Assembly (NCBI GenBank): GCA_964035015.1
Contig: OZ036013.1
Location: 3,597,001-3,661,000 of the forward strand
Direction: 5' to 3'
DNA: 64,000 nucleotides
From: Corallium rubrum
Lineage: Eukaryota > Cnidaria > Anthozoa > Scleralcyonacea > Coralliidae
This document shows, one piece after another, positions 31,295 through 61,093 of the stretch (within the stretch, counting starts at the first letter, position 1; each line of letters starts with the position of its first letter). The notes under the pieces are model-generated. The model had not been told where the DNA came from. It did no database searches and saw only the letters and a program-made list of their open reading frames with translations. Both the position numbers and the translations under genes were made by a program.

Positions 31295-34200
31295 CTAAAC
31301 GAACTCTGGGTTCTCGTCGCCTGAAGCACTAGGTTTCAGAGAACTTACGGTACCACGTTGGTGGGTGAGGTATGTCACCATAATGCGAGGATTTTCTGGT
31401 GAATCAGCGATCTTCGAAGCTTTGGATAAGAGAGGACGATCTGAGGCCGACTCAAAGCTGCCAATGGAGGAAGAGTCGTACCCGTTCTCGTTTATTCCCA
31501 AGGAACTTGTGTCTAAAGAAAATTATAGTAGTACATGACTATACTAGTACATTACTATAGTAGTACATGATTATAGTAGTATATGAGAAGTGTCTCTGGC
31601 TTGACTTCAGGATACTCTGATTTGACTTTAAGATAATCTCACTTGACTTCAAGATACTCTGACTTAAAATCAATATACTGTGACTTGACTTTAAGATACT
31701 CTGACTTGACTTCAAGATACTCTGACTTGACTTTAAGATACTCTGACTTGACTTTAAGATACTCTCACTTGACTTCAAGATACTCTCACTTGACTTTAAG
31801 ATACTCTCACTTGACTTCAAGATACTCTGACTTGACTTCAAGATACTCTGACTTGACTTCAAGATACTCTGACTTGACTTCAAGATACTCTGACTTGACT
31901 TCAAGATACTCTGACTTGACTTCAAGATACTCTGGCTTGACGTCAGGATAGACTTGACTTCAAGATACTCTGACTTGACTTCAAGATACTCTGACTTGAC
32001 TTCAAGATACTCTGACTTGACTTCAAGATACTCTGACTTGACTTCAAGATACTCCGACTTGACTTCAAGATACTCTGACTTGACTTCAAGATACTCTGAC
32101 TTGACTTCAAGATACTCTGACTTGTCTTCAAGATACTCTGACTTGACTTCAAGATACTGATTTGACTTCAAGATACTCTGACTTGACTTCAAGATACTCT
32201 GACTTGATTTCAGGATAATCTGACTTGACTTTAAGATACTGTGACTTGACTTCAAGATACTCTGGCTTGACGTCAGGACACTCTGACTTGACTTCAAGAT
32301 ACTCTGACTTGACTTCAAGATACTCTGACTTGACTTCAAGATACTCTGACTTGACTTCACGATACTCTGACTTGACTTCAAGATACTCTGACTTGACTTC
32401 AAGATACTCTGACTTGACTTCACGATACTGTGACTTGACTTTAAGATACTTGGAATTGGCTTCAAGATACTCTGACTTGACTTCAAGATACTCTGACTTG
32501 ACGTCAGGACACTCTGACTTGACTTCAAGATACTCTGACTTGACTTCAAGATACTCTGACTTGACTTCAAGATACTCTGACTTGACTTCAAGATACTCTG
32601 ACTTGACTTCAAGATACTCTGACTTGACTTCAAGATACTCTGACTTGACTTCAAGATACTCTGACTTGACTTCAAGATACTCTGACTTGATTTCAGGATA
32701 ATCTGACTTGACTTTAAGATACTCTGACTTGACTTCAAGATACTCTGACTTGACGTCAGGACACTCTGACTTGACTCTCAAGCTGACTCTGACTTGACTT
32801 CAAGATACTCTGACTTGACTTCAAGATACTCTGACTTGACTTCAAGATACTCTGACTTGACTTCAAGATACTCTGACTTGACTTCAAGATACTCTGACTT
32901 GACTTCAAGATACTCTGACTTGACTTCAAGATACTCTGACTTGACTTCAAGATACTCTGACTTGATTTCAGGATAATCTGACTTGACTTTAAGATACTCT
33001 GACTTGACTTCAAGATACTCTGACTTGACGTCAGGACACTCTGACTTGACTTCAAGCTACTCTGACTTGACTTCAAGATACTCTGACTTGATTTCAGGAT
33101 ACTCTGACTTGACTTTAAGATACTGTGACTTGACTTCAAGATACTCTGGCTTGACGTCAGGACACTCTGACTTGACTTCAAGATACTCTGACTTGACTTC
33201 AAGATACTCTGACTTGACTTCACGATACTCTGACTTGACTTCAAGATACTCTGACTTGACTTCAAGATACTCTGACTTGACTTCACGATACTGTGACTTG
33301 ACTTTAAGATACTTGGAATTGGCTTCAAGATACTCTGACTTGACTTCAAGATACTCTAACTTGACTTCAAGATACTCTGACTTGACTTCAACTTCAAGAT
33401 ACGTGACTTGGCTTTAAGATACTCTGACTTGACTTTAAGATACTGTGACTTGACTTTAAGAAACTGTGACTTGACTTCAAGATACTCTGACTTGACTTCA
33501 AGATACTCTGACTTGACTTCAGGCTACTCTGTCTTGACTTCAGGCTACTCTGACTTGACTTCAAGATACTCTGCCTTGACTTCAAGATACTCTGACTTGA
33601 CTTCAAGATACTCTGACTTGACTTCAAGATACTCTGACTTGACTTCAAGATACTCTGACTTGACCTCAGGATAGACTTGACTTCAAGATACTCTGACTTG
33701 ACTTCAAGATACTCTGACTTGACTTCAAGATACTCTGACTTGACTTCAAGATACTCTGACTTGACTTCAAGATACTCCGACTTGACTTCAAGATACTCTG
33801 ACTTGACTTCAAGATACTCTGACTTGACTTCAAGATACTCTGACTTGTCTTCAAGATACTCTGACTTGACTTCAAGATACTCTGACTTGACTTCACGATA
33901 CTCTGACTTGACTTCAAGATACTCTGACTTGACTTCAAGATACTCTGACTTGACTTCACGATACTGTGACTTGACTTTAAGATACTTGGAATTGGCTTCA
34001 AGATACTCTGACTTGACTTCAAGATACTCTGACTTGACGTCAGGACACTCTGACTTGACTTCAAGATACTCTGACTTGACTTCAAGATACTCTGACTTGA
34101 CTTCAAGATACTCTGACTTGACTTCAAGATACTCTGACTTGACTTCAAGATACTCTGACTTGACTTCAAGATACTCTGACTTGACTTCAAGATACTCTGA

Positions 34201-58596: not shown

Positions 58597-61093
58597 CTAC
58601 AAAACAAACAAAGGTCACTGGAGAATAGTTATACTGCGGTTCGTGGTATCTGGCATTCGGTGTCGGCGAAGTACCTGGCACATCCCTTATTAATTGCTAA
58701 ATAAACGCACTGACAAGGGTGGAGTGTATTTGCTAAGTAAGATAGTTGCTCAATGCGCTGATTATCACAAAAATGTCCAATAAACTTACACAATGCTGGT
58801 GTTACACTCTTGTTACAAACTTCTTTAGAGTAAGGGGCTAAATGCCTTTCACAAAGACGAGTTTTGATACAACATTCATAAGTCTTGAGCGGTTGACTTG
58901 CATCATTGAATGGTATCAACATTTGAATCTTTCCATGAATAACTTTTCGAGTAGGATTTAATGAATGAAAAATCTTAGGAATAAGGAAAAGAAGTCAAAT
59001 ATTACCAACCGACAATCATGGAATAATTACATTGGGACAACTTGCAACAATGTCACTTCTAAGCAAAGATGCATTTTGCACAGTTAAGTTATCCTACTCC
59101 CCCCCCCCCCCCCCCTCCACCACCATACAATGTTGGCGGCACAAACATGGCATGAGCTGCGGGTGAAAATAATTCAATCATTCGCACCTGTCTTCTTTTG
59201 CCTGCACCCCGCATTTCATAACAAGTTAAAGAATAACACAATGGCACAAAAGCGTATGGATTGCTCCAAAGCACCAATAAGCCATTGTTTTGGCTGACAA
59301 TATCAAGTTCCTTTACTCCAGATGGGTGAGCCACTGATAGAAATAAGAAAAAAATAGATAAAAAACCATGTTAAGAAATAATTTAATAGAAAAATATGAC
59401 TTTAAATGAAGTTGGTGCGTGTGAGGGGTGTTGGGGTGGGTGTGGTAGTTGGGTGTGGGAGGTAAGTGTGGTAAATGGGTGTAGTAGGTGGGTGTGGTAG
59501 GCGGTTGTGGTAGGTGGTAGATAGGTGTGGTAGGTGAGTGTGGTAGATGGATGTGGTAGGTTGGTATGGTAGGTTGGTGTAAATAGGTGTAGTAGTAGGT
59601 TGGTGTGGTAGGCGGTTGTGGTAGGTGGTAGATAGGTGTGGTAGGTGAGTGTGGTAGGTGAGTGTGGTAGGTGAGTGTGGTAGGTGAGTGTGGTAGGTGA
59701 GTGTGATAGGTGGGTGTGGTAGATAGGTGTGGTAGGTGGGTGTGGTAAGTGGGTGTGGTGGGTGGGTGTGGTAGGCGGTTGTGGTAAGTGGGTGTGGTGG
59801 GTGTATGTGGTGGGCGTGGTAGGTGGGTGTGGTAGGTGGGTGTGGTAGGTGGGTGTGGTAGGTGGGTGTGGTAGGTGGGTGTGGTAAGTGGGTGTGGTAA
59901 GTGGGTGTGGTAGGTGGGTGTAAATAGGTGTAGCAGTCGGTTGGTGTGGTAGGCGGTTGTGGTAGGTGGGTGTGGTAGGTGGGTGTTGGTAGATGAGTGT
60001 GGTAAGTGGATGTGGTAGATGGATGTGGTAGGTGGGTGTGAAGGTGGGTGTGGTAGATATATGGGTGTGGTAGGTGGTGTGGTAGATGGATGTGGCAAGT
60101 GGGTGTGGTAGGTAGATGTGGTAGGTGGGTGTGAGGGCGGGTGTGGTAGATGGGTGAGGTAGGTGGGTGTGAAGGCGGGTGTGGTAGATGGGTGAGGTAG
60201 GTGGGTGTGAAGTAGTGGTGTGGATGTGAAGTGTGATGAGTAAGTATAGGGCGTGGAGATATTGAAGATTGGTAAGAGTATGAAGTATGAGAATGTCAAG
60301 TGTTTTGGTTAGACTGTATTTCATGAAGATGATACTAGATCGTATAACCGATAACTCCCTGGGGGGTGAGGGGGTGGGGGGGGGGGGTGAGGGGGGGGGG
60401 TGTGAATGTGGGGTTTAGGAATGAATGTGAAATGTGAGTGTGGTAGGGAGGTGTGAATGTGAGGTGTAGAGAGTAGGTGTGGGGGTGAGTGTGTAAGGTA
60501 GGTGTAAGGTAAGTGTAGGAAATAAGTGTGGAATGAGGGGCTGAATGTAGGGTGTCGTAGCCGTGTAGGTGGTAAATATGATGTGTAGGGGGTAGATGTA
60601 AAGAGTGAGGGTAAGCGTAAGGGTGGAGCGTGTAGTGAGGCGTATGGGTTAAAGAAATATTCCTAAAATTAAAACAAAAAATATTTCCTGTGATCCATGA
60701 CAAGTCCTTCCCTTTTTCCCTTCAAAACAAGGCTAGCTTCAAAAAATATTTCGCTGAATTATAAAGAAAACTACATACCATTTATTACAGGAGTAATTCG
60801 TACAACATCACTTCTAATCTGACAACCCTGAAACTGGGCTGTGAGGAATATAGAGTAGTTGATGTATTGATATACCAGAATACTGCAGTGATGCTTGACT
60901 GGGTAGGCGTTGGTTTTCAATAAACAGTTTTGAACCGTTTTGTAGCTAGGACAGACATGAGAACATGTGGCAGTGTACGCTACTGGGGGCTTTTTGCAAC
61001 AGACATTCACCGAGTAATTTCCAACTGCTTTTTTCTTTGACCATGACACATGTAACTCTCCGCTTAACATGTACTTCACCTCAGGTTTGGCCA
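57171..61093 (-). CDS. Gene B: paralogue of gene A ending before the membrane exon
   Basis: Five exons are recognised: 61093-60779, 59333-59188, 58973-58790, 58596-58502 and 57386-57171. They correspond one for one to exons 2-6 of gene A, with identical phases (1-1, 1-0, 0-1, 1-0, 0-) and clear protein similarity: AKPEVKYML, PLKTYECCIKTRLC, CPTVMKNNWRNVTLRWK and YTLTGLKTGVDYYIDVSMC. The product would be an extracellular three-domain FN3-like protein. The last exon runs VVIPRI into a TAA where gene A has VVLPAIAMQ and a splice donor. Either this is a secreted receptor (possible ligand trap) or the copy is truncated. A signal-peptide exon was not found; it may lie beyond 64 kb or escape recognition. 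Confidence 0.75.
57666..58445. repeat. (CCGTA)n/(CCGCA)n pentanucleotide array in gene B intron
   Basis: About 155 pentamers in blocks: TACTG, TACCG, and a long uniform block of GCACC units at about 58050-58388. Frames up to 350 codons on both strands are artefacts. Mixed blocks at 57780-57835 and 57985-58035 (GCATCGCACCGCACCGTAAT) are duplicated. Confidence 0.98.
58790..59333 (-). CDS. Gene B exons equivalent to 3-4: second FN3-like domain
   Basis: 59333-59188 encodes GLLVLWSNPYAF and YSLTCYEMRGAGKRRQ. 58973-58790 opens with IFHSLNPTRKVIHGK, using the acceptor TTATTCCTAAG, and continues to APYSKEVCNKS. A poly-C run at 59099-59115 sits in the intron just past the donor. The first frame also reads through its donor, but without matching gene A. 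Confidence 0.8.
59400..60240. repeat. 13-bp GTGGGTGTGGTAG minisatellite in gene B intron
   Basis: About 60 imperfect units, grading at 60360-60640 into G-rich sequence with long G runs. His/Thr/Pro frames of over 300 codons on the minus strand are artefacts. Confidence 0.95.
60779..61093 (-). CDS. Gene B exon equivalent to exon 2: first FN3-like domain
   Basis: 315 bases, phase 1 to 1, acceptor ATTTCAG, donor AATG|GTATGT. Contains LHVSWSKKKAVGNYSVNVCC, CSHVC, QNC and FQGCQIRSDVVRITPVIN. The cysteine pattern matches gene A except for slightly shorter loops. A LINE fragment begins about 25 bases upstream of the acceptor. Confidence 0.82.

Follow-up and report, generated by a model that had tools for sequence, protein, structure and literature searches.

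Tandem paralogous genes for a candidate cytokine-receptor-like surface protein and its truncated neighbour in a probable octocoral

We analysed a 64,000-nt stretch of DNA from a probable octocoral (C49:3597001-3661000, the whole of which is called the window), in which two multi-exon genes, A and B, lie in tandem on the minus strand. An earlier note on this DNA had described them as tandem paralogues of a class I cytokine-receptor-like gene. Both gene models were rebuilt from the raw window sequence. Gene A has ten exons spanning 50036-31295 (-), whose in-frame join gives 513 codons and a stop. All of its introns are of the GT-AG type (9/9), and exon sizes of 43-327 nt agree with those previously given. 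The exons are listed below with their entry and exit phases; P0001 and P0002 are spliced sequences found by protein search.

49922..50036, minus strand: gene A exon 1, carries the start codon and encodes the signal peptide; donor CAG/GTAAGT, exit phase 1; equals the start of P0001
47815..48141, minus strand: gene A exon 2, domain 1 (D1), cysteine-rich, probably FN3-like; phases 1-1
41290..41444, minus strand: gene A exon 3, domain 2, N-terminal half (D2a); phases 1-0; junctions equal those of P0001
39150..39300, minus strand: gene A exon 4, domain 2, C-terminal half (D2b; [11 protein letters not shown]...YSEIVC); phases 0-1
38910..39007, minus strand: gene A exon 5, start of FN3 domain 3 (D3a); phases 1-0
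37578..37797, minus strand: gene A exon 6, remainder of FN3 domain 3 (D3b; NYTLTGL); phases 0-1
36287..36401, minus strand: gene A exon 7, transmembrane helix; phases 1-2
35355..35397, minus strand: gene A exon 8, 43-nt juxtamembrane exon (VPLPHLQE); phases 2-0; the short form equals P0001
35165..35264, minus strand: gene A exon 9, cytoplasmic, [10 protein letters not shown]; phases 0-1; donor GTGCGT
31295..31512, minus strand: gene A exon 10, last part of the tail, closed by a TAG stop

Scanning upstream of the gene A D1 exon (48150-57100) identified a single start codon with a hydrophobic leader and an in-phase donor, and this donor matched the consensus at 9/9 places. Hydropathy confirmed the signal peptide and single membrane helix that had been proposed for gene A. 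The same topology was carried by P0001, the lone match to gene A at E up to 1 in a search of 5.8 billion proteins. P0001 is a 513-aa protein encoded on a 2,300-nt contig, and it differed from the ten-exon model only at residues 243 (N/K) and 247 (H/R), with the 43-nt juxtamembrane exon included. Since a 2.3-kb contig is too small to hold the 18.7-kb gene A with its introns, the P0001 contig must be spliced. No processed genomic copy of gene A was present among the 16 P0001 matches (best candidates only) in the window's own assembly (474 Mb, 312 contigs). Such a copy being the sole alternative source, P0001 very probably derives from a transcript and thereby supports all nine introns. P0001 and P0002 bear the source label 'lgn', which we take to denote assembled public sequencing runs. 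A longer in-frame alternative of exon 8 (35310-35397, 88 nt) would yield a 528-aa protein with 15 additional residues ([15 protein letters not shown]), including two tyrosines directly after the box-1-like motif; P0001 has the short form.

Gene B consists of five exons spanning 61093-57171 (-), all open and with intact splice sites.

60779..61093, minus strand: gene B D1 exon, predicted from sequence, upstream of the span of P0002; phases 1-1
59188..59333, minus strand: gene B D2a exon; phases 1-0; equals P0002
58790..58973, minus strand: gene B D2b exon (TYECCIKTRLC); phases 0-1
58502..58596, minus strand: gene B D3a exon; phases 1-0
57171..57386, minus strand: gene B D3b exon (QYTLTGL), with an in-frame TAA directly after domain 3

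Used as a query in a protein search, gene B had P0002 as its sole match at E up to 10. This 213-aa protein, encoded on a 1,113-nt contig, was identical to gene B from D2a through the stop codon, supporting three introns. A membrane helix was absent both from the D3b exon and from P0002. At the position of the initial M of P0002, a D1-D2a junction or a retained intron would give GTG; P0002 neither proves nor excludes D1 in the gene B transcript. Sequences that very probably represent spliced transcripts, whose absence would have refuted the earlier note, thus cover all gene A junctions (P0001) and the last four gene B exons (P0002). The window held only a weak candidate signal exon for gene B. 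Within the 61.1-84 kb scanned, the only candidate signal-peptide exon to reach the threshold lay outside the window, 9.7 kb upstream of the gene B D1 exon (C49 ~3667841-3667730), with a donor matching at 8/9 places and the correct phase.

Comparison of gene B with the gene A exons by tblastn confirmed that the two genes are tandem paralogues, with matches for D1 (E = 1.9e-15), D3b (8.8e-11), D2b (4.5e-8) and D3a (1e-5). The D2a pair scored only E = 0.22, and its homology rests mainly on position and phase. Entry phases agreed in 5/5 exon pairs and exit phases in 4/5, the fifth gene B exon ending in a stop codon and having no exit phase. The proposal of five homologous exons with identical phases therefore held for phase wherever a phase exists, with D2a the weak point for homology. 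The quoted FN3 motifs (TYECCIKTRLC, NYTLTGL / QYTLTGL) and the juxtamembrane VPLP were all present.

Genes A and B belong to a larger family. The 16 genome matches of P0001 comprised nine at gene A, three at gene B and four distant relatives (L001-L004; 24-31% identity, E 7e-15 to 6e-11), which are intron-free proteins of 545-594 aa. Searching with P0003 added a fifth intronless member, L008 (559 aa, C49:3429924-3431375), which lies ~166 kb to the left of the window, and at a distance of 10.4 kb on that side a spliced fragment. D3a- and D3b-like pieces of a third spliced relative (L012) are found just left of the window, at C49 ~3587217-3587116 and ~3586546-3586322; as these are split apparently at the positions used in A and B, the spliced cluster probably holds at least three genes. 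A profile built from five members retrieved 12 further proteins (P0003-P0014), one of them named, the uncharacterized protein LOC114524034 of the octocoral Dendronephthya gigantea; an octocoral source of the window is probable on this ground. These 12 have D2, D3, the helix and the juxtamembrane region in common with gene A, and 9/12 also span domain 1. The nine long ones carry an extra, weakly Ig-like N-terminus; gene A lacks it and has ten exons. The "ancient receptor cluster" of the earlier note is thus borne out as a multi-member family in a probable octocoral, its cytokine-type identity being only partly supported.

By reading, the intronless members contain a signal peptide (assigned by eye), an Ig-like region, domains 1-3, one helix (by hydropathy) and a short tail. 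In a Pfam scan of L001-L004, the Ig-like region matched weakly in L001 (ig, 0.27) and L003 (C1-set, 0.016; Lep_receptor_Ig, 0.056) and gave no match in L002 or L004. Constant regions of Ig chains matched the whole-family profile, from 0.0061. Intronless members with this extra N-terminus coexist with spliced members that are without it, for which retroposition and intron gain are both possible. Pfam fn3 exceeded the cut-off in A, B, L001, L002 and L003 and fell below it in L004; the joined gene A protein scored E 1.1e-5, on domain 3. Three single exons gave no Pfam match, fn3 appearing only with joined proteins. A CoV_E match on the helix in the joined-protein scan of genes A and B (0.068) was taken as chance, and NCBIfam contained nothing relevant for the three proteins searched.

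We compared the domains separately with known structures, using profiles (A9-A11) of 14/19 aligned members; P0007, P0009 and P0012-P0014 were excluded as near-duplicates or fragments. With the domain 2 profile (A9), cytokine receptors made up 26/42 distinct PDB matches at E up to 10, a rough comparison and not a test, as the counts include repeated constructs of one molecule. These were IL-12Rb2, IL-10RB (five), LEPR (four), IFNAR1 (two), IL5RA (four), gp130 (six), LIFR, IL27B (two) and IL6RA. The other 16/42 were DCC, LAR, Eph, contactin, Robo3 and NagJ. At E up to 0.001, cytokine receptors accounted for 4/7 matches, the rest being DCC, twice, and LAR. The IL-12Rb2 value (4.8e-7) adds up five weak stretches, each of them non-significant by itself. 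IL-10RB (1.2e-4) gave the best single stretch (0.0018) of the five alignments shown, in which the cysteine pair, SEPVC and the following EVPS were aligned (Cys...SEPVC...EVPS). Class II receptors are marked by a pair of cysteines that links the last two strands of their domain 2, and the corresponding pattern, picked after viewing the alignment, was present in 19/19 members.

In counts of the same rough kind, the domain 3 profile (A11, same 14 members) gave 140 PDB matches, with 11 cytokine receptors among the best 60; a two-member profile gave 72, with six among the best 60. The best of five matches to the domain 1 profile was domain 1 of IL-20RA, at a non-significant 0.62; a tryptophan and a later cysteine pair were kept in 14/14 aligned members. 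With the whole-family profile (A8, 13 rows), Dscam (7.2e-6), neogenin (5.7e-5, over D2-D3), gp130 (8.9e-5) and IL-10RB (0.0097) were matched. Gene A alone gave 13 PDB matches, the best (0.058) on domain 3, and domains 1-2 of A and B gave two, both unrelated. Domain 2 alone matched Pfam fn3 in 5/14 members (best 8.5e-5). Sub-threshold Pfam matches fell at fitting places: CRLF2_D1 (0.014) alongside Lep_receptor_Ig on L003, CRLF2-like_D2 (0.07, 1/14) and TSLPR_D1 (0.096, 1/14). Profile searching against cytokine-receptor and FN3 families, as the earlier note had suggested, therefore gave a divided answer, with domain 2 leaning to cytokine receptors and domain 3 generic. The family thus sits in the FN3 superfamily, with a lean in domain 2 that sequence by itself does not decide.

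Cytoplasmic tails were also compared. Of 18 tails, 12 contain a juxtamembrane P-x-[LIV]-x-E-[PQS] motif, placed 9-18 residues in. When the first 40 residues of the tails were shuffled (2,000 rounds), the mean was 0.13 and the maximum 2, figures that overstate significance because the motif was chosen after viewing the alignment and the members are related. Among the six tails without it, L001 has PDLQAP, P0004 and P0012-P0014 have a variant lacking the first proline, and L004 has none. Box 1 stretches of human receptors, such as that of gp130, may be similar to the family motif. In gene A the juxtamembrane VPLP is box-1-like only, and docking of a JAK there would be putative. YxxPhi occurred in 15/18 tails and YxxQ in 2/18, none of them gene A.

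The intron phases of gene A are 1-1-0-1-0-1-2-0-1, of which 1-1-0-1-0 belong to the ectodomain; class II interferon receptor genes mostly show 1-2-1-0-1-0, according to an excerpt of PMC8863823. The gene A ectodomain resembles this series minus the phase-2 intron of domain 1, a partial likeness given its one-exon domain 1 and its third domain. The literature searched yielded no intron phases for class I genes. A search of the genome for pathway genes detected one exon above the STAT_bind cut-off (29.4 vs 27 bits), covering 39/133 model positions. Its frame looks STAT-like and may resemble that of STAT5.

The window also contains repeats and mobile elements, as follows.

31594..35064, no strand: 21-bp minisatellite, 165 copies, in the last intron of gene A
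36514..37574, no strand: array of 12- to 63-bp repeats, in the D3b-TM (transmembrane) intron of gene A
42318..46154, plus strand: Copia-type LTR (long terminal repeat) element with gag, integrase and reverse transcriptase, in the D1-D2a intron of gene A and antisense to it; limits approximate

The Copia element was assigned from Pfam PF14223, PF00665 and PF07727 and from near-identical flank frames (42318-42455 and 46017-46154). A fragment of a hAT transposase dimerisation domain lies at 6634-6978 (PF05699, 2.1e-5). Long simple or satellite arrays occupy 9927-11971, 19392-19642, 22597-23001, 35562-35947, 37905-38800 and 57671-58444, with 23-bp, TTTGT, CCTT, CTGA, ACTG/GGCT/CTGA and GTACC units; the last three stretches are intronic in A or B. 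Kilobase-long intron repeats had been claimed, and one is indeed 3.5 kb long, the others measuring ~1 kb or less.

The explanation we favour, with the scales about level, is that gene A encodes a cytokine-receptor-like signalling receptor and gene B a truncated, possibly soluble paralogue. With the same middling confidence, gene A would be a one-pass surface receptor of a probably cnidarian family whose members share ancestry, or at least a common build, with the helical-cytokine receptors. Domains 1 and 2 would jointly bind a secreted protein, and binding would unite two receptor chains. The box-1-like P-x-[LIV]-x-E-P and tyrosines of the tail could then dock a JAK-type cytoplasmic tyrosine kinase and, subsequently, SH2 proteins. 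Several results weigh against this explanation. DCC (4e-4) and LAR (8.5e-4) also match domain 2, domain 3 is matched best by titin (1.5e-15) and Dscam (1.2e-13), and on the whole-family profile Dscam and neogenin score equal to or above gp130. Domain 1 gave no significant family match in the PDB profile or Pfam scans, and unrelated Pfam families (C1-set 0.016, Endotoxin_C 0.019, Pur_ac_phosph_N 0.032) score like the cytokine-receptor ones. Structure prediction for gene A from a three-row alignment gave a poor model (pLDDT 36), which is not usable. Jak1_Phl had no match in the genome, and the controls were equally silent, so this search is uninformative on JAK. The P0001 tail, by reading, has no PXXL, the form of box 1 given for IFN-upsilon R1 in the excerpt of PMC8863823. 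Finally, neither A nor B contains WSXWS, the place of which reads YSEIV / YSKEV, nor, by pattern search, CX(9-10)CXWX(26-32)CX(10-15)C; these are the class I hallmarks as defined in part of PMC1963337. Class I was dropped as a label because both of its sequence hallmarks are absent from A and B. What survives of the earlier classification is a resemblance to cytokine receptors, especially in domain 2, where the best single match is to the class II IL-10RB, together with a tail motif that is box-1-like only.

A serious competing reading is a cnidarian Ig/FN3 adhesion or self-recognition receptor, recruiting SH2 proteins through phosphorylated tail tyrosines and resembling cytokine receptors only through the shared FN3 fold. 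We consider this possible, on the unlikely side: the generic domain 3, the Dscam and neogenin scores, the short tails with YxxPhi far commoner than YxxQ, and the multi-gene, divergent character of the family speak for it, whereas the lean of domain 2, the invariant cysteine pair, and a short ectodomain with P-x-[LIV]-x-E-P directly after the helix, seemingly unusual for adhesion molecules, do not. That the family comprises true class I receptors of Domeless/gp130 type which lost their hallmark motifs is quite improbable. The intronless relatives come near the archetypal order Ig-CHD-FBN-TM-Box 1 (from the part of PMC1963337 that describes it), domain 2 matches include gp130, LEPR, IL5RA and LIFR, and the domain 1 tryptophan and cysteine pair are constant; yet, besides the missing hallmarks, the cysteine pair of domain 2 is indicative of class II, and the Ig-like region is based on weak matches and is missing in A. 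As to gene B, it could be a decaying pseudogene or a mere truncation and not a functional soluble receptor, an outcome well within reach if not the one we expect. The weak signal-exon candidate in the window, with the better one lying beyond it, and a P0002 without domain 1 are in its favour; its five open exons, intact splice sites, largely kept cysteines and a spliced P0002 sharing the same stop count against it. More ambitious, and unlikely in our judgement, is the proposal that octocorals possess multi-gene true helical-cytokine receptors predating the class I/class II split, with an adjacent truncated decoy gene. The pre-split architecture this entails, an Ig-like region, a cytokine-receptor module with a class II-type domain 2, one FN3 domain, a helix and a JAK-docking motif, is just as doubtful. 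If true, JAK-STAT signalling would have had its receptor arm before bilaterian animals arose.

In the excerpts we consulted, PMC12026705 places the complete cytokine-receptor pathway in Bilateria and PMC13203501 traces IL6R only to Mollusca; statements on cnidarian JAK differ within the latter, and JAK is assigned to vertebrates in a table of PMC8662651. PMC8218723 lists an 'IFN receptor-like 3' from oyster, so class II-like receptors have already been claimed in molluscs. No publication among the matches listed in our literature search had, by title, an octocoral cytokine receptor as its subject. With its cytokine-receptor-type domain 2 and conserved juxtamembrane motif, a probable cnidarian family offers defined genes, exons and spliced sequences on which a pre-bilaterian origin can be put to direct test, and it bears on when immune cytokine signalling arose.

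Among known systems, class II receptors, IL-10RB above all, are alike in the domain 2 cysteine pair with a SEPVC-type strand, in partly similar intron phases and in having one helix. The family differs from them in its extra FN3 domain, the missing phase-2 intron of domain 1, a low overall similarity and, in gene A, a tail without PXXL. Class I receptors such as Domeless and gp130 share the Ig/CHD/FN3/TM-like order of the intronless relatives and the box-1-like motif; the differences are WSXWS and the four-cysteine motif, which A and B lack, the short tail, and YxxQ, present in 2/18 tails and not in that of gene A. CRLF3 is likewise a cytokine-receptor-type FN3 protein reported in cnidarians, but it has WSXWS and SPRY, and the excerpt of PMC12026705 reports no signal peptide for it. 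A parallel in gene arrangement is domeless-latran of Drosophila, where, in the part of PMC2914635 consulted, a full receptor adjoins a shorter paralogue in the same orientation, and Latran antagonises Domeless in the fly. Latran keeps an intracellular region, shorter than that of Domeless, whereas gene B ends before any helix. By this analogy, and presupposing its putative signal peptide, gene B, with a gene A-type ectodomain and a stop before the helix, might provide a soluble or decoy partner to gene A, comparable to Latran as an antagonist of Domeless.

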